NCBI GenBank assembly: GCA_017430675.1
Contig: JAFRMM010000188.1
Coordinates: 1 to 24,005 of the forward strand
Length of the DNA stretch: 24,005 nucleotides
Reading direction: 5' to 3'
Source of the DNA: Prevotella sp.
GTDB lineage: Bacteria; Bacteroidota; Bacteroidia; Bacteroidales; Bacteroidaceae
In this document: one piece after another, positions 1,911 to 23,685 of the stretch
Position numbering within the stretch: position 1 is the stretch's first letter
Layout of the letters: each line of letters opens with the position of its first letter
Notes under the pieces: model-generated
Told to the model about the DNA's origin: nothing
Seen by the model: the letters and a program-made list of their open reading frames with translations, nothing else
Databases searched by the model: none
Program-made: the position numbers and the translations under genes

Positions 1911-1922
1911 CACCTCCGGCAC

Positions 1923-1939: not shown

Positions 1940-2020
1940 GAAAGAAAGGCGGAGCGGTTGAAAGACAGCCCCGCCTATTATATATAAATAAGGTATAACA
2001 ATTAAAATATTAACAGTATT

Positions 2021-2293: not shown

Positions 2294-2320
2294 TTATGCA
2301 TTATGAATTATTAATTATGA

Positions 2321-3961
<1,641 letters not shown>

Positions 3962-3979
3962 TACATTCATATAATACTG

Positions 3980-4014
3980 AAATCCGGCAGTCGAAAGGCA
4001 GCCGGATTTTTTTT
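3980..4014 (+). terminator. Rho-independent terminator of groESL
   Basis: A perfect 9-bp stem (3980-3988 with 4001-4009, AAATCCGGC/GCCGGATTT) closes a 12-base loop and runs straight into eight Ts ending at 4014. Confidence 0.85.
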
Positions 4015-4047
4015 GCCCTTTTCCTTCTTTCTTTTCGAAAAAATGCG

Positions 4048-4055
4048 TACCTTTG
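4048..4055 (+). promoter_or_regulatory. -7 box of the kinase gene promoter
   Basis: TACCTTTG matches TAnnTTTG and ends only 7 bases before the ATG at 4063, so the transcript would be leaderless or nearly so. A clear -33 TTTG at the usual spacing is not seen; only T/C-rich sequence is present. Confidence 0.6.
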
Positions 4056-4062
4056 CATCGGT

Positions 4063-5622
4063 ATGCAGAAACTATTGGATCTCTATCGGCAATGGAAGGG
4101 TGCTGAACCTGCCAATGTTCAGCAGATTCCGGGGGGCGGCAGCAACCGTACCTACTATCGTCTGACTGACAGCGAAGGCCAGACGGTCGTAGGCGTTATC
4201 GGCACCAGCCGCGATGAGGACCATGCCTTTATTTACCTCACAGAGCACTTCAACAGACGAAAACTTCCCGTGCCACAGATTCTCGCAGCCAGCGACGATG
4301 AGTTGCGCTACCTCCAGACGGATCTTGGTTCGACGTCACTCTTCGATGCCATCCGTGGCGGACGGGAGGCTGGGGGACGCTATACCCTGAAAGAACAGGA
4401 ACTGTTGCGCCGTACCATCCGTGAACTGCCGAATGTGCAGATCCGGGGTGCCCGTGACCTTGACTTCTCCAACTGTTACCCACAGGCGGAGTTCAATGTC
4501 GATAGTGTGCTCTTTGACCTGAACTATTTCAAGTACTGTTTCCTGAAGGCCACCGAACTGGACTTCCATGAGTTGAAGTTGGAGGCTGACTTCCGACTCT
4601 TTGCCAAGGATCTCACCAACGACGACTATGCCATTGGCGACGCTTTCCTCTACCGTGACTTCCAGGCCCGCAATGTGATGCTTGATCACGATGGAAATCC
4701 CTCCTTCATCGACTATCAGGGCGGGCGCAAGGGACCTTATTACTACGACCTCGCCTCATTCCTCTGGCAAGCCAGTGCAAAATATCCCCATAAACTGCGC
4801 CGTGAACTCGTCTATGAGTATTACAACTCGCTGAAGGATTACACCGAGGTGCCACCCGTGCGCCATTTTGTCAACCGTCTGTCGCTGTTTGTGCTCTTCC
4901 GTACCCTTCAGGTGCTTGGCGCATACGGCTTCCGCGGCTATTTCGAGCAGAAGAAGCACTTCATTGAGAGCATCCCGCCCGCCATCCAGAACCTGCGCGA
5001 ACTGCTCGCCAGTTCTTCCGTATTCCATTATCCATATCTGATGGAGATCCTGCGCCAGTTGACAGAACTCCCGCAGTTCCAGCAGGTAGAGACCGTCGCC
5101 CCGCGTGCTGACGGCTATAGGACGACAGACCTGAACCCCTACAAGGCCCATCCGCAGGACGGTCCCGCTACCTTCTCGCGCTACGATGCCCAGGGACCGC
5201 TGGTGGTGAAGGTGTTCAGTTTCTCCTATCAGAAGGGTATCCCTGAGGACGAGAGCGGCAACGGCGGCGGCTATGTGTTCGACTGTCGCAGCACCCATAA
5301 CCCCGGGCGCTATGAACCCTATAAGAAACTGACGGGTCTTGACGAGCCCGTCATCCGATTCCTCGAGGACGACGGGGAGATCCTGACGTTCCTCGACAGT
5401 GTCTATAAACTGGCTGATGCCCATGTGCGCCGCTACATTCAGCGCGGTTTCACCTCGCTGATGTTCTCCTTCGGCTGTACGGGCGGTCAGCACCGCAGTG
5501 TCTATTCCGCCCAGCATCTGGCCGGGCATATCCATGAGAAGTTCGGTGTCGAGGTGCGCATCTGCCATCGTGAGCAGAAGATCAGCCAGACATTGGAGGC
5601 GCGACATATTCAGAAGGTATAA
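4063..5622 (+). CDS. AmgK-like aminosugar kinase fused to a RapZ C-terminal domain
   Basis: 519 residues in two parts. Residues ~1-340 are an aminoglycoside-phosphotransferase fold kinase: GGGSNRTYYRL nucleotide loop near residue 22, catalytic YRDFQARNVM with Asp199 and Asn204, and metal-binding Asp217 in FIDYQGG. Residues ~381-510 match the RapZ C-terminal domain: VFDCRSTHNPGRYEPY, TGLDEPV, and the diagnostic GCTGGQHRSV (471-480). AmgK phosphorylates the anomeric carbon of MurNAc/GlcNAc in cell-wall recycling, and E. coli RapZ uses this domain to sense glucosamine-6-phosphate. Control of the kinase by an aminosugar ligand is therefore inferred. The expected partner, a MurU-like uridylyltransferase, lies at 7072, but two hcp genes intervene. 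The start is fixed by the adjacent -7 box. Substrate identity is not proven by sequence. Confidence 0.8.
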   Translation: MQKLLDLYRQWKGAEPANVQQIPGGGSNRTYYRLTDSEGQTVVGVIGTSRDEDHAFIYLTEHFNRRKLPVPQILAASDDELRYLQTDLGSTSLFDAIRGGREAGGRYTLKEQELLRRTIRELPNVQIRGARDLDFSNCYPQAEFNVDSVLFDLNYFKYCFLKATELDFHELKLEADFRLFAKDLTNDDYAIGDAFLYRDFQARNVMLDHDGNPSFIDYQGGRKGPYYYDLASFLWQASAKYPHKLRRELVYEYYNSLKDYTEVPPVRHFVNRLSLFVLFRTLQVLGAYGFRGYFEQKKHFIESIPPAIQNLRELLASSSVFHYPYLMEILRQLTELPQFQQVETVAPRADGYRTTDLNPYKAHPQDGPATFSRYDAQGPLVVKVFSFSYQKGIPEDESGNGGGYVFDCRSTHNPGRYEPYKKLTGLDEPVIRFLEDDGEILTFLDSVYKLADAHVRRYIQRGFTSLMFSFGCTGGQHRSVYSAQHLAGHIHEKFGVEVRICHREQKISQTLEARHIQKV

Positions 5623-5645: not shown

Positions 5646-6059
5646 ATGGCATTAACAGCAGTATTAGAATTTGGCGATAACAACATCAAACGCTACTCTA
5701 AGCAGTATTTGGTGTCTGACTTCCGGCTTTTGTATGCCCGCCCCTACAATGAGTTCAGTCCTGAGGGGACAGCCCGTTGCGAGCGGGTGGAACTGACCGT
5801 TGTCGCCCCAGGCAGGGAAGACCTCAGCCTGTTTGATTGGTTTTCCACTCAGAGCGTACAGAGCGGACGGCTTTTCATCAGCCTGTCCAACGACGGCAAA
5901 CTGGACACGGAAGACGCACAGATTCTCTATTTTGAGGAAGCCAAGTGCTTCTCACTCTCAGAAGTATATGATGTCGATCAGTCGCGCCGTCGCCAGTTGA
6001 AACTGGCCATCGGTGCTGATAAGATCGAGATAGACGATGTAACCTTTAACCGTATCTGA
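5646..6059 (+). CDS. tssD: T6SS tube protein Hcp/TssD, Bacteroidetes type (copy 1)
   Basis: 137-residue protein with the pattern of the Bacteroidetes TssD (Hcp) family: an all-beta barrel with an N-terminal strand (LTAVLEFGDNNIKRYS), a Y-x-V-S-DFRL strand, a central helix after the acidic turn (EDLSLFDWFSTQ), and a closing IEIDDVTFNRI strand. Hcp hexamers stack as the expelled inner tube and can carry effectors in their lumen. It starts 23 bases after the kinase gene with no promoter visible in the gap, so it may be read from the kinase promoter. Only 2 bases separate it from the next gene, suggesting translational coupling. It diverges clearly from the third copy starting at 23903, so it may be a specialised tube or cargo-carrying variant. 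Confidence 0.75.
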   Translation: MALTAVLEFGDNNIKRYSKQYLVSDFRLLYARPYNEFSPEGTARCERVELTVVAPGREDLSLFDWFSTQSVQSGRLFISLSNDGKLDTEDAQILYFEEAKCFSLSEVYDVDQSRRRQLKLAIGADKIEIDDVTFNRI

Positions 6060-6061
6060 CC

Positions 6062-6547
6062 ATGGCACGTCTCTATTCCAACGAACTGAAGGCTCTGGTG
6101 GTGCCAGAGAACTTCCTTGACAACCCTAGGAATGTGCTGAAGGAGCACTGTCTCACCATCCAGCACTTCGACTATTGCTGCGAGCACAAGCGTAATGAGT
6201 CCCAAGAGGTCTATGGCCCCACGGAGCCTGTCATCCTGAAGTTTACCGTCCGCGTCAATGCCCCTGCCCACTCACGGGTGTTCTACCATCATCTGGTGTC
6301 GAACAATTATGCCGACTACTCCTTCCTCTTCAACGCCACCTTCAATGGCAATCAGCGGTTGAACGACTATGAGGACGGAATGGTGGTCAACGGCTATGTA
6401 GTCAGTGTGGAGGAACTGTACAGTTCCGAGAAGAACCAGGCCGGCGAGGACGAGCAGATCCTGCTGGACGTGACGCTTCTGGTTCGCTCTGTAACCTATC
6501 TGGGTCGCGAGGAGCAGAATAATTATAAAACTGTATTCATCCAATAA
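6062..6547 (+). CDS. Divergent Hcp/TssD-like protein (copy 2)
   Basis: 161 residues, starting 2 bases after copy 1. The order of elements resembles TssD: a strand with CLTIQHFDYCCEHK, a strand ILKFTVRVNAP, a helix region HSRVFYHHLVSNNY, then strands YEDGMVVNGYVVSVEEL and ILLDVTLLVRSVTYLG. It is about 25 residues longer than copy 1, with an extra N-terminal stretch and longer loops. No signal peptide or membrane segment is seen. The two genes are probably coexpressed, so the proteins may form mixed rings or cap a tube. A hairpin lies 14 bases after its stop. The Hcp-like fold is an inference from the pattern; the protein could also be an adaptor built on the same fold. Confidence 0.6.
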   Translation: MARLYSNELKALVVPENFLDNPRNVLKEHCLTIQHFDYCCEHKRNESQEVYGPTEPVILKFTVRVNAPAHSRVFYHHLVSNNYADYSFLFNATFNGNQRLNDYEDGMVVNGYVVSVEELYSSEKNQAGEDEQILLDVTLLVRSVTYLGREEQNNYKTVFIQ

Positions 6548-7910: not shown

Positions 7911-8798
7911 GTGAAAAGAAAACAATTATTTGACCTTTGCTGTCTGATGGCATTGGTAGTGGCAGGAACACTGCTGTCTTCGTGTTCGAATGATGAGAAA
8001 CAAGAGTTCGTAATGCATTTTTCCACGGATGCAGTACGTGAATTATCCGATGACGGTGTGGTGACAACCCGCGGTCTGAATCGGGATGGCTCTACCATCA
8101 AGGCCGTGTGGAAGGCCGATGACAAGGTCTATGCGTTCCCTGACAATAGTAGCCTGAGCATCGGCTACCTTTCTCCTATGGCTGATAAGGTGGGTACGGA
8201 AAGGACCAAACTTGACGGAAACCTGAACTCTACGGGTTTGAAGGTGGGAGACTATCTGAACTTCGTGACCCCACGTGATGTGTGGGACTATACCGGACAG
8301 GTGGGAACGCTTGCCGACATAGAGTCGAAGTACGACTATGCCCAGGCCAGAGTGTATATCACCGAGATCAGCGACAACGGCATGAAAGGCAGTACCGCCA
8401 ATTTCTCTACCGAGCAGGCTATCATCCGCTTCACCATCAAGGGTGCCGACGGTGCATCGATGAATATCCCTTCACTCACAATCTCGGCAGCCGGGAAGAA
8501 ACTGGCAACGGGCTATGCGTTGAGTGGCGGCACATTTACACCATCCTATGGTGATCTGACGATTACCCCGGCCAGCGCTACCAGTGAGATCTATGTGGCC
8601 CTGCGCAATGACACAGAGGGCAGTGATACTTACACCCTCCTGACCACTGTCAACGGACAATCGTATAATTACACACGTTCGGGTGTCACCTTTAAGAAAG
8701 GCACTCCTTATCATGTCACCGTGACGATGAGCCTGAACGACGACACCTACAGTGAGCGCAGCGGCTACGGCACGGAAGAGGAGCAGATCTGGGACTAA
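7911..8798 (+). CDS. Fimbrillin-like lipoprotein
   Basis: 295 residues. A type II signal peptide (MKRKQLFDLCCLMALVVAGT) ends in the lipobox LLSSC with Cys25 as the lipidation site. The following SNDEKQE is acidic, as in Bacteroidetes lipoproteins exported to the cell surface. The body is beta-rich and carries fimbrillin-family marks: VTTRGL near residue 48, AVWKADDKVYAF, and FSTEQAIIRFTIKG in the middle. The closing KKGTPYHVTVTMSL strand is also typical of Mfa/FimA-like modules. The start is GTG; the overlapping ATG at 7909 meets a stop at once, and the next ATG would remove the positive N-terminus. It lies 15 bases before a paralog and heads the operon containing vgrG. Function is not known; an adhesin or surface subunit is likely. 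Confidence 0.7.
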   Translation: MKRKQLFDLCCLMALVVAGTLLSSCSNDEKQEFVMHFSTDAVRELSDDGVVTTRGLNRDGSTIKAVWKADDKVYAFPDNSSLSIGYLSPMADKVGTERTKLDGNLNSTGLKVGDYLNFVTPRDVWDYTGQVGTLADIESKYDYAQARVYITEISDNGMKGSTANFSTEQAIIRFTIKGADGASMNIPSLTISAAGKKLATGYALSGGTFTPSYGDLTITPASATSEIYVALRNDTEGSDTYTLLTTVNGQSYNYTRSGVTFKKGTPYHVTVTMSLNDDTYSERSGYGTEEEQIWD

Positions 8799-8813
8799 CC
8801 TGACGACCATGGC

Positions 8814-10286
8814 ATGAGGAAGCGGGTGACCGGTCTCTGCAGGAATGCTGTGATGATCGTGGCTGCCGTTCTCTTGGCCGCCTGTACAGCAGATTCCGTC
8901 CTGAGCGAGAAGGCTCAGGATGGATTCTTTGTGTTGACCGTCCATGCCGTGAAGGGCGAAGATGAGGTGACCACCCGGGGCCTGGAACTCAGCGGGAAGA
9001 CGCTCAATGCCATCTGGACCTCCGACGACAAGGTGGCAGCCCATACCGATGACTGGAGTTCGGTCGTGGGGACGCTGACCCCATCGACCACCGGCACGGC
9101 TGCTACGGTGCTGAAGTCGGCCATGACGGTTGCCGTCGGCAATGACGCCCACCTCCATCTGCTCTTTCCCCGCAGTACCTGGGACTATACCGGACAGGAC
9201 GGTTCGCTGGCCACCCTTAGCGCCTATTACGACTACGCGCTGGCTGATGTTGTGGTGCAGCGCGCCTCAACGACGACCATTCATGCCAGTGATGCTGTGT
9301 TCAGCAACCAGCAGGCCGTTGTCAGGTTCATCCTGACAGACCAGAACGGGAGTGCCATCAATGCCTCGTCGCTGACCATTCACGATGCGTCGGGGAAACT
9401 GGTGCAGCGTGTGTCGGCAGGTACTGACCAATATGGCGACCTGACGATCAGTCCGAAGACAGCCTCCAGTGAACTCTATACTGCTTTGCGGGGCGTGAAT
9501 AATAGTGAACTCACATTGACGGCCACGGTTGGCACTGATACCTATACCTACTCAAAGAGTGGTCTGACCTTTGCCAATAGCCACTACTATGCCTGCACCG
9601 TCAAAATGCAAAGGCTCGTCGGCAACCCTCTGACATTCGAGGCCGTGAACGACAACACGCAGATTACCTTCCAGAACAATTCCGGAGGTACGGTGGAGTT
9701 TCGGCGGAATGACGGCGAATGGCGTACTTATACGACGGCACTCACCCTTGATGCCGGCGACAAGGTCAGTTTCCGTGGCAATAATGCCAGTTATTTCCCG
9801 GATAGTGATGCCTCCCACTTTGAGTGTACCGACGACTGCTATGTCTATGGTAATGTCATGAGTCTGATTAGTGCAACAGATTACGATCATGTCACGGAAC
9901 TGACGGACGATCATACTTTCAGGGAACTCTTTAAGGACAATACGCATATCAGGAACCATCCGGAAAAGGAACTCCTGCTGCCAGCCACCACACTGACGGC
10001 CAACTGCTACCGCTCGATGTTTGAGGGCTGTACTGCCCTGACAAAGGCGCCGGTGCTGCCTGCGGCGGAACTCAGACAAAACTGCTACCAGTCGATGTTT
10101 GAGGGTTGTACCAACCTCATCTATATCAAATGTCTGGCTACCAGTATTAATGCTGTAGGATGTACGACCGACTGGGTGAACGGAGTGGAGAAGGATGGCA
10201 CTTTCGTGCAGGCCGCTGGTGCCGACTGGTCATCCAAGGAGGATGGCAGTGGTATCCCAGAGAACTTCACAGTGAACTCAGAATAG
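8814..10286 (+). CDS. Fimbrillin-like lipoprotein with BspA-type repeat tail
   Basis: 490 residues. The signal peptide ends in LLAAC with Cys24 lipidated. Residues ~25-267 are a paralog of the preceding gene; shared blocks include VTTRGL, WDYTGQ with a nearby YDYA, the QQAVVRFIL strand, and YGDLTISP. Residues ~272-365 form another beta module containing CTDDCYVYGNVMSL. Residues ~383-445 hold two 26-residue repeats (NCYRSMFEGCTALT and NCYQSMFEGCTNLI), matching the leucine-rich/BspA-like surface repeats of Prevotella and Bacteroides, which usually come in longer arrays. At the DNA level the repeat period is 78 bp from 10002. It is 37 bases upstream of vgrG with no promoter or terminator between. 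It is probably a surface adhesin; a T6SS role is only suggested by position. Confidence 0.7.
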   Translation: MRKRVTGLCRNAVMIVAAVLLAACTADSVLSEKAQDGFFVLTVHAVKGEDEVTTRGLELSGKTLNAIWTSDDKVAAHTDDWSSVVGTLTPSTTGTAATVLKSAMTVAVGNDAHLHLLFPRSTWDYTGQDGSLATLSAYYDYALADVVVQRASTTTIHASDAVFSNQQAVVRFILTDQNGSAINASSLTIHDASGKLVQRVSAGTDQYGDLTISPKTASSELYTALRGVNNSELTLTATVGTDTYTYSKSGLTFANSHYYACTVKMQRLVGNPLTFEAVNDNTQITFQNNSGGTVEFRRNDGEWRTYTTALTLDAGDKVSFRGNNASYFPDSDASHFECTDDCYVYGNVMSLISATDYDHVTELTDDHTFRELFKDNTHIRNHPEKELLLPATTLTANCYRSMFEGCTALTKAPVLPAAELRQNCYQSMFEGCTNLIYIKCLATSINAVGCTTDWVNGVEKDGTFVQAAGADWSSKEDGSGIPENFTVNSE

Positions 10287-10323: not shown

Positions 10324-13300
10324 ATGGCAAATAACGAAACTGTTTCAGTAGAAAAAGACGCGTTTTTCGTCTATAGGCTAACTTTCGGTAATACGATAAC
10401 GAATCCGAAGACGGAGTTGGACAAACTGCAACTCGAACAGAGCGTGCTCAAGAACTTTACGGATAAGAACAGTAATATCACCTATAGCATCGTGTTGCAT
10501 GGCGTGAAGGTGAATAAGAAGATCTATCAGCCCTGTGAGATTGAGGTGGAGTTGGACTACATGCAGGTGACGGGGGAGAATACGAGTAAGGCACCTTCTT
10601 TCCAGGCCGTCTCATCCATGTTCTTTGAGAGACAGGTGAAGTTGGAGATCGTCCATCTGAACCGTGAGAAGGATACTACGAAAACGACAGAATACGGATC
10701 TTCCTATACCGTAGCCGAGAACTGCTACGTCTATGAGTTGAACCCCTTGCTGAAGAGAGATACCAACGGTACGAAGATGTTTGTGAAGTTGAACATCTTC
10801 AGCATGGATAAGTTGATGACGCTGAACAAGTATAGTAAGGCCTACGTCGCACGCAAACTCGGCTCGGGGATCCTGGAGATGGAAAGAGACACGTTTGGAA
10901 AGCAGGCCAACGACCAAGATCCTTTGATCCAGACGGACATCACCGGCATACAGTTCCTGAGATATCCAGAATCGTTCACTGCCAAGGACAAAGATGGCAA
11001 AGATCAGACCTACAATATCCAGTCAGAATTTATCCATCCCTATCTGGTGCAGTACAACGAGTCGTTCTACGACCTCCTCGTTCGTACCGCCAACCGTTGC
11101 GGTGAGTTCCTCTTCTTTGAAGACGGCAAACTGACGCTTGGTCTTCCTCTTGTCCAAGATATTGTTAGTTCTAAGAAGTCCCCTCTCAAAATTACGTATT
11201 ATGAGTCGGTGACCAAACAGGACATCTCCGACGGGCCGTTTAAGGTGCAGGAATATTTCCGCGACAGTGTGAAAGACAATAATGGTGAGATGTCAGAGAT
11301 GAATTTCACGCCCATCGAGAAGGGGAGCGACGGCTATCCCAAGGACGCATTCCCGGAAAAGCCCGCCTATAATGCCGAAGTGGCCAACGATGACTATATC
11401 TTCCCGGTCTTCAAGGATAAGTTCTCGTCTCTTGCCCGTGAGTTGTACTACGACGGCACTGGCGATCAGGTCGCCATCGCAAAGATAATGCAAGTTCTGA
11501 AAAGTGCGCTGGCTGATAAGACCGAAGGTGATCCGACGGCAAAAAGTGCAGGAACGGCACTGGCCATTGCAGCGGGGGTGGCCCCTGCGGTGGCCGAGGC
11601 CTTCAATGCCATTTTCGGCAAATTGGGGGCAAACGGTAAGAATACGGAGAAGACAGCAACATACGTTGAGAGTCTGAAGGACCTTGTAGAGCAGGCCAGT
11701 GCGGATAGTGCCGTGCAGTTTGCCACCTTAGACCCCGCTGGCTGGACCAAGATTGACTATTTCCGTGATATCCACAGCCACCAGGCCGCCCAGCAGCGAC
11801 AGATCATCTGCATCAACATGGGTACGGCTTATGCTCCGGTGAAGTTGGGACAGCCCATTCAGGTGGAAGGACTTGACAATACCACGTATGTCGTTATCCA
11901 GATCCAGCAACTGTCGGAAGAGGCGTGGAGCCGTGACTACGACACCTACGGTAGTACGGCTACTGACAAGTTCAGTGGTAAACGCTCACAGAAGATCTAT
12001 GCCATCCCAGCATATAAGAATAGTGATAGTGACACCGTGAATCATTTCATACCGCCGGTACATCCGGTGCCCATCATCCGCCATTCCGGTCCGCAGACGG
12101 CTTTCGTCTGTGACAATGCCGACCCGAAATTCCAGGGCCGTGTGCGTATCGCCTTCCCCTGGCAGTCGATAGGGCAGTTGGAGCGCCAGCAGTTGGCACA
12201 AGCCGAACAGGAGTTAAAAGAGGCAAAGAAAAAGGAAGAAGAAACGGAAAAGAAAGTCGAGGAACTGAAGGGTCAGGCCAAGGAGTACAGTAGATATCTC
12301 GATGAGGTGAAGGCCTTCCTCAAGATGTCGGCTGAGGAGCGGAAAGCGTATCTGAATGATTGTAAGGACAAGCGTAAGGCTCTGGCTGAGGAATTGTCTG
12401 AACATCAGAAGAAGAAAGCGGAATACGAAAAAACGCGTGACGAATCGGCAGCAAAGATTGATGAGGAGAAGAATGCCAAGGAAAAACGTAAAAAAGAAGC
12501 AGAACAGGTGCTCACGGAAATGGCCATCAATGAAGAGGATGCCGAGATCGCCAGGATACAGGAGGAAATCGACATGATCGACAAGAAGACGACGTTCTGT
12601 GAAAATGCGGAGAAAAACGAGACGGAACAGAAAAAAGACAGTAGTTATACCATCGACAAAAATAATACTGTCAAGGATCTGACCGAGAAGTACGAGCAGG
12701 CGACCAAGGGCTTGGTCATTATCGAAAAGGAAAAGACCGAGGAGGAGAAAGCCATGGAGGACCTGAAGAAGGCCGCGGATGCAGCCAGGGCGGCTCTCCA
12801 GAAGGACATCGCCGGCAATGCCACACCTTGGATCCGCATCGCCACGCCCATGGCTACCGATGGTGGCGGCTTCTATTACAAACCGCGCGTTGGCGACGAG
12901 GTGCTCGTGAACTTCGACAACGACAATGTTGAGCGGCCATACGTCGTAGGCACCCTCTATTCCAAGAACACGCTGCAGCCGGCAGAAGGCTTGGACCGCT
13001 ATCTGGCACCGAAGATACAACAGGGTGATGGTCTCAGTATGTCGCTCATGTCGCCCAACGGTCATCACATCACCTTTACCGATCCAGGCGACGGCATGAA
13101 GTTCATTGCCAACTTGAATCCTGGCACCGGATTCCTCTATTCCGTACTCCCGGGTTTTCTCGCAAATGCCATACCCGACGTGCCGGAGGCCAAGGACCTC
13201 ACTGGTGGCATCCATATTGGCGACCGCTATGGCCTCTATGAGATCCAACTCAGTTCGCACGCCCGTGAGGTCAGCATCTCGTCGGCGCTTGGAAAAATCA

Positions 13301-14724
13301 AACTTAATGCCTTCACGGGCATCTCTATCAATGCCCCCAACGGCGATATCAGTATCACGGGTCAGAACGTGACTATCTCGGCAGGCAACAAACTCAGCAT
13401 CACGTCGGGTAATAACATTCTGCCGCCGGGTATCGGAGACCCCGACTTCGAGTGGAAAAAGATTACTGAGAGGGAAAAATGGCAGGATTACGTTAAGATA
13501 CCTTTCAGAGCCCTCGGCAAGGGATTGCATTACCTGGGTCACAGTGCCATCCTGCCTGGCGCTATGGCAGGAGCAGTGGTGGGTGCCCAGAAATTGCCCC
13601 TGGCCGACCTCTCATTCTTCCGCTGTATGCTGCAGACATTCATGAGGCCTATCGACGGTACCATGCTCATCAAGTCGAAAAAATACATGATGCTTGAAGC
13701 CGGCAACGGAACGGCAATGGTTAATCCTGGCCGGTACAAGGAAACTAAGGAAAGAACGAAGAGGCAGGCTGGAGTCTATTATAATACCCTGCTCATCAAT
13801 GCCGTTTCCAGTGTCAATACCAAGATTGACAACTACTTCGCCACCTATAATGATTTGTGGAAGAAGGCAGCGGAAAGTAAACAGACTTATCAGTTCAGAG
13901 TAACAGAGGCACTTGTTAATGCCAATGACCCTAACATTCTTAATACGGCGTGGGGTAAGGCGACCAATGAGGAGTGGGGAGATATGTATGAGACGTATGA
14001 TGGTCTTTTTGAGGGTAAAATAAAACCAATACCCAATATTACCAGGGGAAGAGCAATAGTAAGGCGTCGCAACCTGGTTAGGCTTGCCGTGGGATATGGC
14101 GAGGCTGTCTTTAATCTTCATAAGCACATCAAGAAATTTGAGCATCTCTTCGATGTGACAGCACAAGGTACCAATATTGATGATTGTCTGAAAGCAGCAT
14201 TTGATAAGGCAAAAGCAGACGTTACAGGCTACTTGGATGGCTTGAACGATGCCAATATCCTCGGCACAGAGACGGATGAGGAATTTAAGAAGAAGATGAA
14301 ACTCCTGAAACGTAAGACTGTGGCCCATTTCCTGCTCGAGGTATCCAAGACGGAGGCCAACAAGGAATACGACTTTATCAACATCGGCTATGATGAGAGC
14401 GATATTAAGGAAAGCAACCTGAAGCAGGACTACTACTGGAAGCGCTTTATGCGGGGTGCTGCACGGGGAACTCAAAACAATATCCTCGCATCTGCCTACG
14501 AGTCCTTCATGGGCGAATGGAAGAAGCAGTTCGATGCCGACAAGTGGAAACTGGACGTCTGGGATGCCAGTCAGGCAGGACAACTGTTGATATCCGACAA
14601 TGCCGACGCCACCGTACACATCAATAGTGGCGGTGATCAGCCGCAACTGGAACAGGAGAAGGATGCCAACTATGGCAACGAGAAGCGTCTGTGGAAACTT
14701 GTGCTGGGTTTTAATAATATATAA
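10324..14724 (+). CDS. tssI: Giant T6SS spike protein VgrG/TssI with helical insertions and C-terminal extension
   Basis: 1466 residues, about twice the usual VgrG length. The N-terminal part (~1-480) is gp27-like, including FIHPYLVQYNESFYDLLVRT. The gp5-type OB-fold is split: GRVRIAFPWQ at 605-614 and TPWIRIATPMATDGG from 834, continuing PRVGDEVLVNFDNDNVERPY. Between them lie about 200 Lys/Glu-rich residues predicted to form a coiled coil. Beta-needle repeats follow at ~965-1032 (ISITGQNVTISAGNKL). The rest (~1033-1466) is mainly helical. It is bracketed by beta rungs KSKKYMMLEAGNGT and GQLLISDNADATVHIN, and has a Gly/Ala-rich hydrophobic stretch near 1068-1085. VgrG trimers tip the Hcp tube and carry effectors. 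The helical part may be cargo or a docking domain; I saw no recognisable toxin motif. It lies in the same operon as the needle protein 12 bases downstream. Confidence 0.88.
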   Translation: MANNETVSVEKDAFFVYRLTFGNTITNPKTELDKLQLEQSVLKNFTDKNSNITYSIVLHGVKVNKKIYQPCEIEVELDYMQVTGENTSKAPSFQAVSSMFFERQVKLEIVHLNREKDTTKTTEYGSSYTVAENCYVYELNPLLKRDTNGTKMFVKLNIFSMDKLMTLNKYSKAYVARKLGSGILEMERDTFGKQANDQDPLIQTDITGIQFLRYPESFTAKDKDGKDQTYNIQSEFIHPYLVQYNESFYDLLVRTANRCGEFLFFEDGKLTLGLPLVQDIVSSKKSPLKITYYESVTKQDISDGPFKVQEYFRDSVKDNNGEMSEMNFTPIEKGSDGYPKDAFPEKPAYNAEVANDDYIFPVFKDKFSSLARELYYDGTGDQVAIAKIMQVLKSALADKTEGDPTAKSAGTALAIAAGVAPAVAEAFNAIFGKLGANGKNTEKTATYVESLKDLVEQASADSAVQFATLDPAGWTKIDYFRDIHSHQAAQQRQIICINMGTAYAPVKLGQPIQVEGLDNTTYVVIQIQQLSEEAWSRDYDTYGSTATDKFSGKRSQKIYAIPAYKNSDSDTVNHFIPPVHPVPIIRHSGPQTAFVCDNADPKFQGRVRIAFPWQSIGQLERQQLAQAEQELKEAKKKEEETEKKVEELKGQAKEYSRYLDEVKAFLKMSAEERKAYLNDCKDKRKALAEELSEHQKKKAEYEKTRDESAAKIDEEKNAKEKRKKEAEQVLTEMAINEEDAEIARIQEEIDMIDKKTTFCENAEKNETEQKKDSSYTIDKNNTVKDLTEKYEQATKGLVIIEKEKTEEEKAMEDLKKAADAARAALQKDIAGNATPWIRIATPMATDGGGFYYKPRVGDEVLVNFDNDNVERPYVVGTLYSKNTLQPAEGLDRYLAPKIQQGDGLSMSLMSPNGHHITFTDPGDGMKFIANLNPGTGFLYSVLPGFLANAIPDVPEAKDLTGGIHIGDRYGLYEIQLSSHAREVSISSALGKIKLNAFTGISINAPNGDISITGQNVTISAGNKLSITSGNNILPPGIGDPDFEWKKITEREKWQDYVKIPFRALGKGLHYLGHSAILPGAMAGAVVGAQKLPLADLSFFRCMLQTFMRPIDGTMLIKSKKYMMLEAGNGTAMVNPGRYKETKERTKRQAGVYYNTLLINAVSSVNTKIDNYFATYNDLWKKAAESKQTYQFRVTEALVNANDPNILNTAWGKATNEEWGDMYETYDGLFEGKIKPIPNITRGRAIVRRRNLVRLAVGYGEAVFNLHKHIKKFEHLFDVTAQGTNIDDCLKAAFDKAKADVTGYLDGLNDANILGTETDEEFKKKMKLLKRKTVAHFLLEVSKTEANKEYDFINIGYDESDIKESNLKQDYYWKRFMRGAARGTQNNILASAYESFMGEWKKQFDADKWKLDVWDASQAGQLLISDNADATVHINSGGDQPQLEQEKDANYGNEKRLWKLVLGFNNI

Positions 14725-14736: not shown

Positions 14737-16722
14737 ATGGACTATATATTCAAAGAATGGGAAAAGAAACTGTCCGACTTTGAGGGCAGCGTGGAGAAAG
14801 ACCTGTCAGAGATCCGGAAATGCAAGGCCGAGATACGGCGGATATCCGATGATCTCAACAACAGCCTTGTGAAAGGACGCTATCTGCGGGATAACCAGCG
14901 GTTCATCATCTCCGCCCCCGAGATTATCATCGGCAACGTCGATAACAATGGCATGCTGCTCGATGGCGGATCCACCATTGTCCTGAGGGGTACAAAGTTG
15001 GGACTGCAGGCCGCCACCGATGGCGGACAGGTGGAACTGCGGGCACCGAGCATCCGTGAGATCGCCGAAGACCCGGGCAGCGACGGACAGGAGCATGTCG
15101 TGAGCGATGTCTCCGAGGTGGTCAGCCAGGCACGCAGTGTGGTCATCCATAGCAGTGACGCACAGAGTGTCTTTTCGGCACCTGCCGTTTCTGGCAGTGG
15201 CATTAGTCTGCAAACCGACCGGCAGATTGACATTGAGGCTGTCCAGACGGCTGAGAGCCGCGAGACCCGTCTCACGGAGCAGATCAGCGGACTGGAAAAG
15301 CAGAAGAGCAATTTGAAGGATCTGGCCTCCTCCCACAAGGAGTCGTTCAAGAGCATGAAGGAGGAAATGGAGAAACTGCTTGACAAGAAGGATAAGTTGG
15401 TGTCCGACGAGGACAACATCCTGTCAACCTATAGCGATATTTCCTCGCTGAACCAGCAGATTGACGAGGCCGCCATGGCGCTGTCGGAAGAGACGGCCAG
15501 TTATGCCGAGGTGCTCTCATTGCTGGCGGAGACCAACCGCCAACTGAAGTGCCTGAAGGACGAGAAAGGCAAGATCAAGAAGGGCGATGACTTTAAGAAG
15601 AACACGACGGGAGCCGCCGTGAACATCGTCGGCGAGAACATCAGCCTGATCTCCGCCGACGGCGAAGGCAACCTGCGCGACAATGAAGGCTCGGGCATTG
15701 CCATTATGGGTAACTCCGTCAGCGTGGCTTCCATCGAGTCCGACGGTAAACTGAAGGAGAAGGGAGTGGTGAGCATCAAGGCGTGTACCATTGATGTGGC
15801 TACTGCCGGAGAGACTGACCAGAAATACGAGAAAGACGGCACACTGACGACGGCTACCTACACGTCAGAGGGCGACTTTAAACTGACCTCGAAGAACATC
15901 ACCATCGAGGGTATTGATTACGAGGTGAAGGATAAGAAACTAAAGGAGAAACAACTCACGGCTGACAGCAAGATCAAACTCCGTGCCAAGACCATCGAGG
16001 TGAGCACCGAAGCCTCGGCCAACGTCGAAGTCGATGACCAGGGTAAACTCACCAAGGCCAACTATACCGCCGAGGGCGATCTCATCGTGCGCTCGAAGAC
16101 CGTCACCGTGGAGACCACCGATACCGACCTGGAGAATGGCGAGGCCAAGGAGAAGGCTCTCACCAAGGACGGCAAGGTGACCATACGGGCCGAGAAGATG
16201 AACCTCTCTGCCACCGATACCGAGGGGAAGGCCACGGGTAGCATCGGCATCAATGCCAAGGACGTCAGTGTGAAGTCGATGGACGTGGAAAAGGAAAAGC
16301 GTACCGACGACAAACTTGCCGCTGGCAGTACGATGGTGATTGTCTCGGAGAAGATGTTTGTCGGTGCCAAGTCGAAGGATGTCAAGAGCAAGAAGATGCA
16401 GGCCGTCTCCGAGGAGATGGGGCTCTTCGCCGACAAGACCTTCGAGGCCCAGCAGGGCGACGGCAAGGCTGTAGTACAACTCGACGGCGGTAACGCCTCC
16501 GTCGGCGGCAGCAAGAGCCAGATCTACGGCGACACGGCCATCAACGGCAAGACGGAGGTGAAGGGCGACCTCAAAGCCCCGAAAGGACAGTTCGACAACC
16601 TGGAGGCCAAGACATCTTTCAAGTCGCAGAATATCAGCGACGGTATCGCCGTGCCCGGCGCAGCCGCTGGCGGCAGCCTGAGTGCCAAGTTGAAGACCGA
16701 GGATGCCCCGAAATCAGAGTAA
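14737..16722 (+). CDS. T6SS-associated beta-needle protein with coiled-coil insertion
   Basis: 661 residues, not recognised as a named family. After an N-terminal helix (~1-45) come short beta-rung repeats (QRFIISAPEIIIGNVDNNGM, VELRAPSI, ISLQTDRQIDIEA) to about residue 172. Residues ~173-282 are a charged coiled coil. From ~290 to 640 the rungs resume, with a longer repeat of acidic turn plus strands (YTSEGDFKLTSKNITIEG, YTAEGDLIVRSKTVTVET, GKVTIRAEKMNLSATD). The end has QIYGDTAINGKTEVKGDL, as in phage spike proteins. This looks like a trimeric beta-prism needle of the gp5-C/VgrG type. It is in the same reading frame as vgrG and separated by one stop codon and 12 bases. It probably extends the spike or forms its tip, since no PAAR protein is visible. 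It has no signal peptide. Role inferred. Confidence 0.6.
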   Translation: MDYIFKEWEKKLSDFEGSVEKDLSEIRKCKAEIRRISDDLNNSLVKGRYLRDNQRFIISAPEIIIGNVDNNGMLLDGGSTIVLRGTKLGLQAATDGGQVELRAPSIREIAEDPGSDGQEHVVSDVSEVVSQARSVVIHSSDAQSVFSAPAVSGSGISLQTDRQIDIEAVQTAESRETRLTEQISGLEKQKSNLKDLASSHKESFKSMKEEMEKLLDKKDKLVSDEDNILSTYSDISSLNQQIDEAAMALSEETASYAEVLSLLAETNRQLKCLKDEKGKIKKGDDFKKNTTGAAVNIVGENISLISADGEGNLRDNEGSGIAIMGNSVSVASIESDGKLKEKGVVSIKACTIDVATAGETDQKYEKDGTLTTATYTSEGDFKLTSKNITIEGIDYEVKDKKLKEKQLTADSKIKLRAKTIEVSTEASANVEVDDQGKLTKANYTAEGDLIVRSKTVTVETTDTDLENGEAKEKALTKDGKVTIRAEKMNLSATDTEGKATGSIGINAKDVSVKSMDVEKEKRTDDKLAAGSTMVIVSEKMFVGAKSKDVKSKKMQAVSEEMGLFADKTFEAQQGDGKAVVQLDGGNASVGGSKSQIYGDTAINGKTEVKGDLKAPKGQFDNLEAKTSFKSQNISDGIAVPGAAAGGSLSAKLKTEDAPKSE

Positions 16723-16746: not shown

Positions 16747-17496
16747 ATGAAACCAATTATTGTAGCCCAGATTTCCGGTGTACAGGAGAAGTTCGAAGCC
16801 TATCTCATGTTGCTCCGGTACAAGTATATGAACCTTTGTGTCAAGGCAGAGGTAGGGGCACTGATGCCCGTCACCGTCACCGATTTCTCTGGCAGTTATG
16901 ACCTGGAGGAAGTGGCCAGCGTGGGTCTGCCCGATGAGTTTCACTTTGTAGTCTATCCTAAGGACCCAGACCAACTACAAGCCATTATCAAGGGTATCTT
17001 CGATGCCCATCCTGAGTTTAAACTGGATATCAAGACCGGTGAGGTAGAGTATTCAGACGGTAGTGACGACAAGACGGAATTTGAGGGAATCGAGAGTATT
17101 CTGGCCGACAAGAACAGCACGGGTGACGATGACCCGAAGAGCCGCTATCTGCTCTACACCATGCCCGAGGTTGATAAGGATCGACGCGACTTGCTGAACA
17201 CCACGGCCAAAAGCCTGCACAAGCAGTGCGTTGCTGAAATAGACGTGCTCTATGCCAGACAGTCACCCCAACTTGTCAACATGCTGTCGGATGCCCCGGC
17301 TGAGGAAGTTGATGAAGCAAAAGAGGCGCTCAAGAATGTTTACGAGGATTACAAGAAGACCGCTGATGATTTGCTGAAGGCTAAACTCGACGAGATTGAA
17401 GATGGCTACCAACACTATCTCATAGGACGTGAAAGCGAGGCTGAGGCTAACAAGGATTATGGACAAAGCCTCAATCTCAACAAGATGGAAGAATAA
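16747..17496 (+). CDS. Ribosome recycling factor (RRF)-like protein in the T6SS spike operon
   Basis: 249 residues with no annotated family I can name with certainty. By eye it aligns with RRF along its length. [20 protein letters not shown] (52-71) lines up with the E. coli RRF domain II stretch [32 protein letters not shown] (139-150) lines up with the hinge PLPPLTEERRKDL, and residues 151-219 with the C-terminal helices. About 35 acidic residues (~96-132) are inserted before the hinge and ~30 are added at the C-terminus. The conserved RRF arginines in the NVRRDAND helix are not kept (here EIDVLYAR), so ribosome binding is doubtful. It lies 24 bases after the needle gene and 14 before guaA. 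It may be a repurposed RRF fold acting as adaptor, chaperone or effector; the function is unknown. Confidence 0.5.
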
Positions 17497-19212: not shown

Positions 19213-21750
19213 ATGAATGCTAAACTAAAAACAATTGCCAATTCCTTTGCTGAGGAATATTGTAGTGATGCCATTTATCCGGCACATCTGTTCAAGGCTG
19301 TTCTTCATAAGGAAATCGGACTCGTCCACTTCATTGAGAGCGAACTGGACAAAGACTATTTTTATCTTCAGGACTGGGCAGACGTGCAGATGCAGTTGGC
19401 CCCGCGTGCCGTCCGTCCGATGCGAGACCTTGAGTATAGTGATGAGGCACAGGCCGTCATCGAGGAGGCTGAGAACTATCAGGTGAAGTTCAATCTCGAC
19501 GAGTGCACGGACGTCTGTGTGCTGGCCTCGCTGGTGACACCAGGTGTAGGCTTCTCCTTCGATCAGTTGAAGACGCTGCCACTGACCCCGTCGGACATCA
19601 GTGCGAAGATGGGCGGTGGTGCCAATGTGGAGGCTCCCTACATGGAGGGTGCCGAGTTGACGAAGAAGACCGGTGGCAGTGCTGGAGGCGGCAAGGGAAG
19701 TCTGGCCAAGTACTGTGTGGATAAGACCGCCATTGCCCGTGCCGGCAACCTCGACAACGTGATTGGTTTCGAGAAGGAGATCTCTGTGATTTACGAGATA
19801 TTAGGCCGTAAGACCAAGGCCAACTTGCTCATTACGGGTGAGGCCGGCGTGGGTAAGACGTCGCTCGTGAACGGGTTTGTCCGTGAATTGGCTGCCGACC
19901 ATGTGCCGGGCTTCCTCAGTGGGGCTGTGGCATACGAACTCGATACGGCAGCCCTTGGCGGCGATGCCCAGTACAAGGGTGAGGTGGAGGACCGCTTCAA
20001 GAACGTCATCACAGAGGTGGAAAACCTGCCGAATGCCGTGCTGATCATCGAGTCGATCGACAAACTCTTCGACAAGCAGGGATCGCTCTTCGGTACTTCT
20101 TCGATCCTGAAGAACGAACTGAGTAAGGGCCGTCTGCAGTTGCTCGCCACCTCGAGCATCGACGGCTTTACGAAGAATATCGAGACCGACAAGGAGATGA
20201 CCTCGAAGTTGGAGAAGATCACGGTGGAGGAACCCACCGCCGACCTGACGCTCCGCATCCTGAAGGGTGCCATCCCCGCCTATGAGGAATATCACAAACT
20301 GACTGCCGACGAGACGGTGCTGGGCGATGCTATCCGCCTGGCCAAGCGTTATCTGACGGAGAAGTCGCTGCCTGACTCGGCCTTCGACCTCCTCGACCGT
20401 ACGATGGCCCAGGTGAAGACGATGAATGACCTGACTGGCAGTATCATTGAGGACCTGAAGGGCAAACTCGATGCCATCAAGGCTTCGGCTGAGGGTAAGG
20501 ACAAGGCTGACGAGGGACTGATGAAGGAACTTGACTGGCTGAACTACGAACTCTTTAATAAGGTGAGTTGTATCCTGCTGGCTGGTGTGGATTCCGATAC
20601 CGACTTCAGTAAGATCGCCACCATTCAGGAACGTATCGACTTTTTGTCGGCCACCCTCGACAAGTTGTCCGAACTGAGTGCCGAGCAGCGCACAGAGTTG
20701 AAGAGCGACGACCTCAGTGCCGTCGTGGCCAAGCAGACAGGTATTCCTCTCGGAAAGGTGCAGACCAAGGAGCGCGACCGGCTCATGGGTGCCGAGGAGA
20801 CACTGAAGAAGCGCGTTGTCGGTCAGGATCACGCCGTGAAGAAGGTGCTCGATGCCGTCTATGAGGCCCGTTCCGGTCTCAGCAAGAAGGGGCAGCCCAT
20901 GGGCTCGTTCTTCTTCCTCGGTCCGACGGGTACTGGTAAGACGGAGTTGGCCAAGGCCCTCGCTACTTTCCTCTTCGGAGACGAGAGTGCGCTCATCCGT
21001 TTTGATATGTCGGAGTTCAAGGAAGAGCACTCGGTGGCCCTGCTCTATGGTGCGCCTCCGGGATATGTTGGCTATGAGGAAGGTGGTCTGCTGGTGAACA
21101 AGATCCGCCAGAACCCCTACGCTGTGGTGCTGTTCGATGAGATCGAGAAGGCCCACAAGAGCGTGTTCGACCTGTTCCTGCAGATCCTTGATGAAGGTAA
21201 GTTGCACGACCGTCTGGGACGTGTCGGCGATTTCTCAAACGCCCTCATCCTCTTCACCTCGAATATCGGCGCACAGACCATCGTGGAGAAGTTCAACAGC
21301 GGCGTGATCCCTGAGAACAATGAACTGATGGACATCATGCAGGGATATTTCCGTCCGGAGTTCCTGGCCCGTCTGACGGAGATCGTGCCGTTCTCACCGA
21401 TCACCGACAAGACCGTTGCCAAGATCTTCGACATCCACCTGAAGGGCTTGCTGAAACTGTTGGAGGAGCAGAACATAGAACTGACGCTGACACCCGATGC
21501 CCGTCAGACGATCGCTCTGCGTGGTTACAATCAGCAGTATGGTGCACGTCCGGTTTTGGGCATCATCCGTAAGGAACTGCGCCACCCGATCTCGAAGATG
21601 ATGATTGCCGGCAAGGTGAAATCTGGCGACAAGATCGAGGTGCAGGTTGATAAGGACGGTTGCCCCGTCTTCGTGATCAACGGGGAAAAGGCAGCAGAGC
21701 CAAGTGCCGAAGAAAAAGTTGAGAAGGCAGGGAAGAAAGGTAAGAAATAA
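19213..21750 (+). CDS. tssH: T6SS sheath-recycling ATPase TssH (ClpV) with degenerate first ATPase domain
   Basis: 845-residue Clp/Hsp100 ATPase that disassembles contracted TssB/TssC sheath in the cytoplasm. Order: Clp N-domain (~1-140), Gly/Ser-rich linker (~155-165), D1 (~180-400), a short middle region, D2 (~540-770) and a C-terminal Clp domain. D1 keeps Walker A (GEAGVGKT, 209-216) and a pore-loop-like YKGEVED. Its Walker B reads VLIIESIDKL (Glu280-Ser281 where Asp-Glu is expected), and the usual LERRF arginine-finger segment reads MTSKLEK (329-335). D2 looks intact: Walker A GPTGTGKT (570-577), Walker B VVLFDEIEKA (Asp642-Glu643), GYVG pore loop and FRPEFLARLTEIV. Context with tssB/tssC downstream supports TssH rather than ClpB. 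It carries a Lys/Glu-rich tail. Confidence 0.93.
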   Translation: MNAKLKTIANSFAEEYCSDAIYPAHLFKAVLHKEIGLVHFIESELDKDYFYLQDWADVQMQLAPRAVRPMRDLEYSDEAQAVIEEAENYQVKFNLDECTDVCVLASLVTPGVGFSFDQLKTLPLTPSDISAKMGGGANVEAPYMEGAELTKKTGGSAGGGKGSLAKYCVDKTAIARAGNLDNVIGFEKEISVIYEILGRKTKANLLITGEAGVGKTSLVNGFVRELAADHVPGFLSGAVAYELDTAALGGDAQYKGEVEDRFKNVITEVENLPNAVLIIESIDKLFDKQGSLFGTSSILKNELSKGRLQLLATSSIDGFTKNIETDKEMTSKLEKITVEEPTADLTLRILKGAIPAYEEYHKLTADETVLGDAIRLAKRYLTEKSLPDSAFDLLDRTMAQVKTMNDLTGSIIEDLKGKLDAIKASAEGKDKADEGLMKELDWLNYELFNKVSCILLAGVDSDTDFSKIATIQERIDFLSATLDKLSELSAEQRTELKSDDLSAVVAKQTGIPLGKVQTKERDRLMGAEETLKKRVVGQDHAVKKVLDAVYEARSGLSKKGQPMGSFFFLGPTGTGKTELAKALATFLFGDESALIRFDMSEFKEEHSVALLYGAPPGYVGYEEGGLLVNKIRQNPYAVVLFDEIEKAHKSVFDLFLQILDEGKLHDRLGRVGDFSNALILFTSNIGAQTIVEKFNSGVIPENNELMDIMQGYFRPEFLARLTEIVPFSPITDKTVAKIFDIHLKGLLKLLEEQNIELTLTPDARQTIALRGYNQQYGARPVLGIIRKELRHPISKMMIAGKVKSGDKIEVQVDKDGCPVFVINGEKAAEPSAEEKVEKAGKKGKK

Positions 21751-21795: not shown

Positions 21796-22260
21796 ATGGC
21801 AATGAAAGAGAATTTTATCTCGATGGCTCCCGATGAGGAGAGCAGTGCGAAAGTCAGTTTGATTGACCAGAACAAAACATTGATGATCGATCAGTACACA
21901 ACGGATGTAGAGGCCGGCAATCCCGAGTTTGTGGAGGATATCCAGAATATCGAGGATGCCTTTGCACACTTCAAGCCGAAGGTAGAGGTGAGTTTCACCG
22001 ACGAGGAAGGCGGTTCTGTGGATGAGACGCTGCAGTTCGGTGAGTTGCGCGACTTCGAGGCACAGGGTGGCAAGGGCCGTCTGGTACAGAACAGCCCCTT
22101 CCTCTCCAGCACAAAAGAGAAGATCGACACCAACCAGAAGATTCGCAAGAGCATTGAGCAGAACCGCAAGTTGCGTGACATCCTGAAGGAAGCCGGCAGC
22201 CGTGCTGAACTGAAAGAGGTGCTGCAGTCGATGCTGAGTGAACTGGAAGGCGCTGAGTAA
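21796..22260 (+). CDS. tssB: T6SS sheath small subunit TssB
   Basis: 154-residue partner of TssC in the contractile sheath. The family pattern is visible: a short N-terminal segment, a strand KTLMIDQYTTD, the core HFKPKVEVSFTDEEGGSV with LQFGELRDFE (about residues 57-95), then a long C-terminal helix (NQKIRKSIEQNRKLRDILKE) ending LQSMLSELEGAE. Length is typical for Bacteroidetes TssB. It lies 45 bases after tssH and 54 bases before tssC, on the same strand, with no terminator in either gap. The three genes are likely one unit, placing sheath subunits beside their recycling ATPase. Confidence 0.92.
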   Translation: MAMKENFISMAPDEESSAKVSLIDQNKTLMIDQYTTDVEAGNPEFVEDIQNIEDAFAHFKPKVEVSFTDEEGGSVDETLQFGELRDFEAQGGKGRLVQNSPFLSSTKEKIDTNQKIRKSIEQNRKLRDILKEAGSRAELKEVLQSMLSELEGAE

Positions 22261-22314: not shown

Positions 22315-23685
22315 ATGGCAGATGTAGAAATGCAGAAAGCCCAGGCTGCCGAACAGGCAGGTGCCGGACTTCAGGAGAAAGAAGGACAGAAAGACGTCTC
22401 CCAGTTGTTGAAAGCATTCGGTGGCTTCAATGCCATTCGTGGTTTCATGCCCGATGCAGATAATATGAACCCCGCCCGCAAGGCCGCTAAGCAGGTGTTC
22501 CTGAGCGACAAGCGCTTCAAGGACAAGCGCGAGGGACTGAAGCGTGACATCAAGCGCTGGCTCGAACTGCTCGATGATGCCAGCATCGAGAGTGCCACCG
22601 GTTTCGCCGATGCCTGTAAGCAGGATGAGGAGAAATATACGAACGTACTGAAGCAGGGTATCACCGATGCCCTCTATGCTACCCAGAACCTCGAGCGTAG
22701 TTATCGTCAACTTGACTCGTTCTTCAAGACCTGTGGTACCGATAAGGTGAAGAATCTGCGTATCATCAACGTGCTGAAGGAGGATATCGCTGATGCCGAT
22801 TCTGGTTTCGCTAATGAGGTCGAGAACATCCTGCGCAACGGCTTCGACCGTCTGAGTCTGAAGGATGCCTATAGTCTTGTCTGTGTGCCGGGTGCCGTGT
22901 TCACCGATAAGGTGGATCTGCTCCAGTGGGCAAAGATGGCCTTCAAGTACAAGGTGATGCTGATCACCGACCACGCCGACGAGTATTCGTTCGATGACCT
23001 GCAGGCCAATACCGAGGGCTACCGTGACAGCGACCAGGAACTGATGAACGTGGTGATGACCGCCAACTGGATCGTGGGCCGCGAGGCAGAGAAGATGTCA
23101 TCCGACGAGGAGGACGCCAAGGCCTTCTATATCGCACCGGCTGCCGCCCTCTGCGGAAAGTTGTACGACGAGACCGCCAACATGGCACAGGGTGCCGGTG
23201 GTAAGAAGTATGGTACGCTTGACGGTGTGAAGGGTGTGAAGAGCGACCTGCTGAAGTCGGAGATCGCTGCCCTGATGGACAATCAGGTGATCCCGATGGT
23301 GTATAGTGAGGGTCGTGTGATGGCTTTCAACAACACCACGCTCTACAACGGTGATCTTGATGCCATGAAGGAGTATCCTATCGTCCGCGTGTTCGACTGG
23401 GTGAAGAAGGTGCTGATGAACTTTGTTCACGAGGTGGCCCTAGAGAACTGGGATCCGTACAACAGCCCGAAGAACCTGAAGTCGAAGATTCAGGAGTTCC
23501 TCAACATGTATAAGGGTTATGGCAACTTGTTCCAGAACTACGAGATCGGCGAACCGCGCCAGGATCCTGTCACTAAGCAGATCACCTGCGACATCACGCT
23601 GACCCCGTTCTATGCCGCCAAGAACTTCGTGATCAAGGTGGCTGCCGATAAGAAGGACAAGGAGGCTGCTCTGGCAAGTGCATAA
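22315..23685 (+). CDS. tssC: T6SS sheath large subunit TssC
   Basis: 456-residue large sheath subunit that pairs with TssB to build the contractile sheath around the Hcp tube. Near the N-terminus is the sheath segment FNAIRGFMPDADNMNPARKA. It continues with LERSYRQLDSFFKTCGTDKV near residue 130 and a long alternating alpha/beta core. The final domain has CDITLTPFYAAKNFVIKVAA, the C-terminal strand that takes part in inter-subunit handshakes. No signal peptide or membrane segment is present, and length is normal. It follows tssB, and a long hairpin lies just past the stop. Strong codon bias suggests high expression. Family assignment rests on the overall pattern and context. Confidence 0.92.
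   Translation: MADVEMQKAQAAEQAGAGLQEKEGQKDVSQLLKAFGGFNAIRGFMPDADNMNPARKAAKQVFLSDKRFKDKREGLKRDIKRWLELLDDASIESATGFADACKQDEEKYTNVLKQGITDALYATQNLERSYRQLDSFFKTCGTDKVKNLRIINVLKEDIADADSGFANEVENILRNGFDRLSLKDAYSLVCVPGAVFTDKVDLLQWAKMAFKYKVMLITDHADEYSFDDLQANTEGYRDSDQELMNVVMTANWIVGREAEKMSSDEEDAKAFYIAPAAALCGKLYDETANMAQGAGGKKYGTLDGVKGVKSDLLKSEIAALMDNQVIPMVYSEGRVMAFNNTTLYNGDLDAMKEYPIVRVFDWVKKVLMNFVHEVALENWDPYNSPKNLKSKIQEFLNMYKGYGNLFQNYEIGEPRQDPVTKQITCDITLTPFYAAKNFVIKVAADKKDKEAALASA

Follow-up and report, generated by a model that had tools for sequence, protein, structure and literature searches.

The DNA analysed here, a stretch of 24,005 nucleotides from Prevotella sp. hereafter called the window, encodes among its T6SS spike genes a protein of 249 amino acids that is distantly homologous to the ribosome recycling factor (RRF), of which it may be an ancient paralogue. 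The homology of this RRF-like protein, RRFL, to RRF, its predicted RRF fold and its linkage to T6SS genes are established by computation. RRFL is probably not a usual recycling factor. Its putative function, which the evidence narrowly favours, is that of a spike-specific accessory protein, a chaperone or adaptor, of the spike proteins CL0 and VgrG in one T6SS subtype of the Bacteroidales. It seems that certain Bacteroidales of the gut and rumen have turned a long-established translation factor to a new use, the assembly or loading of a bacterial weapon.

A sequence-only reading had placed an RRF-like protein at 16747..17496 amid T6SS spike genes, and this observation is confirmed. The features of the window are as follows.

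5646..6059, + strand: TssD/Hcp-like protein (PF17642, E 1.5e-7, above the cut-off)
6062..6547, + strand: CL6, 161 amino acids, no Pfam match; in related loci often between the TssD-like gene and VgrG
10324..14724, + strand: long VgrG-like spike protein, 1466 amino acids (Phage_base_V, E 2.3e-15; Phage_GPD and DUF2345 below their cut-offs)
14737..16722, + strand: CL0, 661 amino acids, putatively the second spike protein; its gene is the closest partner of the RRFL gene
16747..17496, + strand: RRFL, 249 amino acids (PF01765, 39.3 bits; predicted RRF fold)
17038..17142, + strand: acidic RRFL insert (residues about 98-132), for the most part of low model confidence and poorly filled in relatives
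17398..17493, + strand: C-terminal extension of RRFL, residues 218-249, a prolonged helix and then a low-confidence tail
19213..21750, + strand: ClpV/TssH-like AAA ATPase (AAA_2 and ClpB_D2-small; ClpB/ClpV NCBIfam models below the cut-off)
21796..22260, + strand: probable TssB (VipA), before TssC (T6SS_VipA, E 0.072, below the cut-off)
22315..23685, + strand: TssC (PF17541, E 6.3e-100, which places it in the T6SSiii family)

The order of the genes is TssD-like, VgrG-like, CL0, RRFL, an ORF that we take by eye to resemble GMP synthase, ClpV-like, probable TssB and TssC. According to the ORFs of the window, RRFL starts 24 bases 3' of the end of CL0. Just before VgrG, positions 7911-10286 encode two related, secreted-looking proteins of 295 and 490 amino acids, each by eye with a Cys near the N-terminus; their cluster has 14 members in 9 loci, several of them beside other spike cassettes. 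Rfam, at gathering scores, has no match in the window.

The homology to RRF, first proposed from a manual alignment, is borne out by profile comparison. In a Pfam scan the window RRFL scores above the curated cut-off of PF01765 (29.7 bits), and all 46 RRFL relatives match this family at E<=0.1. The NCBIfam scan gave no RRF match to RRFL, the PADLOC and PHROGs scans gave no RRF or otherwise useful match, and a PDB search from the single RRFL sequence gave weak matches. The predicted model of RRFL has the L-shaped, two-domain fold of RRF, composed of a three-helix bundle and a beta domain, as had been expected. It resembles RRF (frr, PF01765) over about 180 residues, including the hinge motif (MP..xxxR) and a C-terminal K..EI, and its structural alignment to full-length RRFs shows 13-20% identity. 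The acidic insertion (~96-132) and the C-terminal tail absent from RRF, both noticed in the sequence-only reading, were found again with slightly different limits for the insert. The insert has a mean column occupancy of 0.42 in alignment A1. A tail motif is shared by 57 of the 121 proteins of the family, and shuffled tails give a mean of 0.23 and a maximum of 2, a contrast that is optimistic as the motif was picked after inspecting the tails; the other 64 proteins lack it. The mean top-residue frequency of RRFL is 0.75-0.79 in segments 29-46 and 133-150, which form the conserved hinge, and 0.46 in segment 151-212. Selection conserves the RRFL gene, with dN of 0.043 and dS of 0.45 between the window and its relative L001. 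By eye, an evident signal sequence is absent.

However, RRFL has diverged from canonical RRF. The arginines at canonical positions 30, 131 and 134 (numbering of the reference L082), which we take to face rRNA, are present in 20 of 20 canonical proteins and in 0 of 46 RRFL, so that the loss of rRNA-contact arginines reported earlier holds in all 46. Presumably, domain I arginines around E. coli Arg132 contact rRNA. Arg132 of E. coli RRF is named in the title of PDB entry 1ise. Position 30 is a gap in all 46 RRFL sequences. Position 131 is occupied by D (28), E (11), K (5), N (1) or Q (1), and position 134 by Y (26), H (5), F (4), C (4) and others, K once. Position 33, which is R in 13 and K in 7 canonical sequences, is K in 45 of 46 RRFL, and at least one R lies within the stretch aligned to canonical 128-137 in 31 of 46. 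The hinge and C-terminal residues P105, R111, L115, E182 and I183 (L082 numbering) are kept in all 46. The median pI is 4.57 (4.29-4.87) for RRFL and 7.67 (5.85-9.11) for canonical RRF; the median net charges are -20 and +1, respectively, and those of domain I are -9 and +1. We infer that RRFL may no longer bind ribosomes, although basic residues are partly retained at the sites of contact between RRF and rRNA, and binding is for this reason still conceivable.

A separate canonical frr, for which the sequence-only reading had suggested a search, was found by PF01765 at 200-229 bits in 20 of 21 RRFL host genomes; the exception, G003, has no match that strong. RRFL is not the sole housekeeping frr copy of its hosts. 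In the same search every one of the 21 genomes also gave 1 to 9 RRF matches of lower score, numbers that under-count RRFL, as two of the three copies in G001 were missed. Another difference from RRF is that RRFL is found in T6SS spike cassettes, in up to several copies per genome. We conclude that RRFL is probably not a usual recycling factor because the arginines are gone, the charge is inverted and a separate frr accompanies it in 20 of 21 genomes. A loss of RRF function is likely.

RRFL is a recurrent member of a cassette that comprises VgrG, the spike-like CL0 (~660 amino acids) and RRFL. A scan of genome contigs for RRFL gave 78 loci, taken from the best 80 of 99 confirmed stretches and chosen by RRFL alone. 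By record title all are from Bacteroidales, mostly Prevotella or Prevotellaceae, and also Alistipes, Parabacteroides, Bacteroides and others. Many of these records are, by title, metagenome-assembled drafts, in which absences may be gaps. The 78 loci and the window were relabelled with HMMs built from those loci, so that the labels are not independent; among their 83 RRFL genes, CL0 is directly before RRFL in 65 and within three labelled genes in 14 more, where PAAR-like and PEGA genes usually intervene. The remaining four comprise an incomplete gene at the edge of a contig (L005), two genes at contig ends (L052 and L064) and one with CL0 nearby on the opposite strand (L058). At the 55 loci without an E1 gene, VgrG, CL0 and RRFL are found together in 48 and a PAAR-like gene in none; six of the other seven are short loci with CL0 and RRFL and no labelled VgrG, and L064 has PEGA and RRFL. 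At 34 of these 55 loci, for example L013:1386-3700 and 11113-13679, genes for a SpoIIE-type phosphatase, STAS or HATPase proteins lie near VgrG-CL0-RRFL cassettes, and the scanned SpoIIE-type member has sensor domains; these neighbours suggest partner-switching control of the spike.

The members of the cassette have been inherited together. Over 68 modules from 40 genomes, which are the RRFL genes kept from the 83 after leaving out 15 without full-length RRFL, CL0 or VgrG in reach, RRFL distances correlate with those of VgrG (r 0.83) and of CL0 (r 0.64). Within genomes (38 pairs) both correlations are modest, with r of 0.46 and 0.34, respectively. When RRFL was reshuffled among the modules of one genome, the observed overall r was reached in 0 of 1000 trials. 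The correlation shows inheritance as a cassette and not physical contact; gene linkage alone also correlates trees. The RRFL-CL0 correlation is below that of RRFL and VgrG, yet gene linkage favours CL0. Mirror-tree scans along CL0 and VgrG singled out no binding region, and the stretch of CL0 that correlates best with RRFL is also its most variable one.

In 249 genomes of the genus of G009, RRFL (E<=1e-18) was found in 21 and CL0 (E<=1e-10) in 22, which are the same 21 and G408. TssC was found in 40 genomes, whose scores fall into clearly separate groups, the classes having been drawn after the scores were seen. RRFL is present in all 20 genomes with a TssC of 333-354 bits and in none of the 20 that have other TssC matches only (four of 750 bits or more, fourteen of 418-446 bits and two partial). 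G536 has both this class of TssC and another, and G400 has RRFL and no TssC match. The proposed co-occurrence with this VgrG type across T6SS loci is thus seen both in the cassette linkage and in the genus-wide tracking of one TssC class. By a hand count among the matches listed, RRFL lies within 2 kb on the same contig at 45 of 47 CL0 places. The other two are G408 and G006:C102, a place at which CL0 is cut short by the end of the contig. In G408 (L117:852-4046) a SpoIIE-type gene follows CL0 in the place of RRFL and the genome has no TssC match; CL0 can occur without RRFL. In G469, one contig (L119) carries TssD, TssD-like, CL6, RRFL, CL0 and PAAR-like genes, the last three at 1204-4435, and no VgrG. 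The core operon lies on a different contig (L120) in the order ClpV, TssC, VgrG and E1, with no CL0 or RRFL between them. RRFL is therefore seen to travel with CL0 even where VgrG does not.

Each RRFL gene accompanies a particular spike paralogue, and one machine can have several of them. G006 and G009 have at least six and at least five RRFL matches, respectively, and one TssC match each, and these several copies per single TssC point to RRFL being spike-specific rather than machine-specific. A single contig of G001 carries three RRFL genes within 29 kb. RRFL is rare, since in an order-wide sample of 295 genomes a match above 46 bits was obtained only in G001, the centre of the sample; further matches in the list, at 45.6 bits or less, have scores like those of canonical frr. 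No homologue was confirmed in viral contigs, where none of 36 pattern matches is a relative, and plasmids gave none.

The model of CL0 is of moderate quality (pLDDT 70.7, pTM 0.48) and is laid out as N-terminal helices, a helical hairpin (172-279) and beta repeats. A Foldseek search of this model against the PDB gave no match at E<=0.001, the best being the VgrG spike 6sk0 at E 0.1, and for this reason we describe CL0 as a putative second spike protein. The chaperone or adaptor reading of RRFL is favoured because there is about one RRFL per spike and because the protein combines the RRF fold, an acidic composition, the lack of an evident signal sequence, a conserved hinge and a disordered tail with a motif. 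RRFL would bind CL0. In such a mechanism the spike is the variable part and the machine the constant part. Each RRFL may bind its own CL0, or its CL0-VgrG trimer, in the cytoplasm, and would help CL0/VgrG to fold, to be capped or to be loaded before entry into the common baseplate. Contact with a shared part of the machine could be made through the disordered tail of RRFL or through its conserved hinge ([23 protein letters not shown]).

Known spike adaptors and chaperones of the T6SS (DUF4123, DUF1795/Eag, and DUF2169/TvpA with Tvp complexes) are likewise accessory genes tied to one VgrG paralogue. Tvp complexes, which according to PMC13373197 are accessory proteins for VgrG-PAAR spike assembly, are the closest functional parallel that we found. 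However, RRF is the only Pfam family of the window RRFL (no DUF4123, DUF1795 or DUF2169 adaptor domain up to E 1), and its linkage is closest to CL0. Bacteroidota T6SSiii are known from the GA1-3 loci (PMC4714493) and from their membrane complex (PMC10781749). The window shares TssC (PF17541), TssD and ClpV-like genes with T6SSiii, and related loci have a gp25-like TssE and, below the cut-off at E 0.0019, a weak match of TssK type. The present class differs in that its TssC scores 333-354 bits, against 750 bits or more in the best-fitting class, and in its long VgrG, CL0, RRFL and the E1, E2, UbL and RING genes of the core operon.

The core operons of this T6SS class appear to encode a pathway of ubiquitin-like conjugation. 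Their genes usually run TssC, TssD, TssD, TssD-like, CL6, VgrG, CL0, (RRFL), DUF4280 PAAR-like, PEGA, (RRFL) and ThiF-type E1, followed by CL8, TssK-like, gp25-like TssE, CL10, UbL, E2, CL14, CL15 and RING. At L062:10711-20699, where E2 was found by HMM labels only, and in related operons (24 E1 loci, among them L048, L055, L060 and L075), a ThiF-type E1, an E2-like protein, a UbL of 105-107 amino acids that ends in Gly and a membrane RING protein are encoded. The E1 assignment is firm (ThiF, E 4.4e-48, one member scanned), and the Pfam matches of E2 (0.003), UbL (0.008) and RING (0.001) are weak. Aligned members keep HPN and an invariant Cys in E2 (17 of 17), a C-terminal Gly in UbL (16 of 16) and eight invariant Cys/His in RING (11 of 11). 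PDB profile searches weakly matched E2 to E2-25K (E 0.025) and UbL to ubiquitin variants (E 0.0087). UbL and E2 are each present in 23 of the 24 E1 loci and RING in 12, several of these loci breaking off ahead of RING. The tested E1 also resembles bacterial E1-E2 systems, as it matches PADLOC models (best E 6e-15); the difference is that the genes here are embedded in a T6SS operon. One E2, one UbL and one RING matched no PADLOC model at E<=0.01.

E2 was found in 34 of the 249 genus genomes, at 235-363 bits in 19, all of which have RRFL, and at 149-161 bits in 15 more; G536 has both kinds. No E2 match was obtained in the RRFL genomes G400 and G444, nor in any of the four genomes whose TssC falls in the 750-bit class. 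Five loci of the 149-161-bit group (L109-L113) represent a sister subtype, a T6SS with a shorter VgrG of 670-764 amino acids. It has UbL, E2 and RING in all five loci and E1 in the three that reach it, and neither CL0 nor RRFL in any of the five. A protein encoded in this subtype matches Prok-JAB weakly (E 0.0087). The gene that follows VgrG there was considered as a hidden RRF relative and found no support (hhalign 0.1%, three diverse sequences only).

Four other roles for RRFL have to be weighed against that of a chaperone or adaptor. RRFL could be a structural component that is fired with the spike, for instance by capping CL0 or forming a collar on it, and not a chaperone that stays in the cytoplasm. 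One RRFL per spike cassette and its co-inheritance with VgrG and CL0 would suit such a component as well; however, the strongly acidic composition and the disordered tail would suit a transient binder, and we know of no RRF-fold spike element, so that we regard a fired component as rather unlikely. It is improbable that RRFL serves the E1/E2 of the ubiquitin-like branch as their substrate or adaptor. Among labelled genes RRFL immediately precedes E1 in 15 of 24 core loci, most of which have UbL and E2. However, all 55 loci without E1 keep RRFL, 54 of them with CL0, although their E1 may lie elsewhere in the genome; moreover, the five sister-subtype loci have the branch without RRFL, and the gene after their VgrG shows no RRF kinship in the three sequences compared.

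The other two roles had been suggested, beside that of a spike adaptor, in the sequence-only reading; an adaptor or chaperone would fit best among the three. An antibacterial effector that acts on target-cell ribosomes as a non-productive RRF would agree with the fold, with the place in a spike cassette and with the remaining basic residues. It is very improbable, given the three arginines lost in all 46 sequences, the inverted charge and the recurrence of the gene as a cassette part. A regulator tying the state of translation to secretion, or a second working recycling factor, would account for the RRF homology, for the hinge residues kept in 46 of 46 and for K at position 33. It too is hardly to be expected, as the key arginines are lost, 20 of 21 genomes have a separate frr and the presence of RRFL follows one T6SS class in the genus sample. 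Both roles are disfavoured by the loss of the key arginines on the rRNA side and by the recurrence of the gene in the cassette.

To our knowledge, no RRF-fold protein works outside translation. In a literature search with most subscription journals and bioRxiv preprints outside its scope, we found no link of RRF to T6SS in Bacteroid- taxa or with VgrG, and no description of a T6SS class with RRFL. Papers that join RRF and T6SS are, by title and start of abstract, transcriptome, secretome or genome-comparison studies; those on RRF-like folds, on ubiquitin-type genes with T6SS and on rumen Prevotella T6SS describe in these parts neither the RRF nor the ubiquitin-like link to T6SS. By term counts, 'ubiquitin' and 'ribosome' are absent from PMC4714493, and in PMC10781749 'ubiquitin' refers to the fold of a TssN/EccD domain.

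Some sources annotate RRFL genes as 'ribosome recycling factor', and annotators should be wary of this name. Taken as a whole, the proposal that a translation factor was exapted as a dedicated T6SS spike chaperone, one per CL0-VgrG spike, in a T6SS class with seemingly its own E1-E2-RING ubiquitin-like conjugation, has in our estimate an even chance of being right. If true, a universal translation factor would have been rebuilt into part of a weapon, and a new fold would be added to the spike accessory proteins of the T6SS. RRFL would then serve as a marker gene by which to recognise a T6SS subtype in Prevotella of the rumen and gut and in their relatives.
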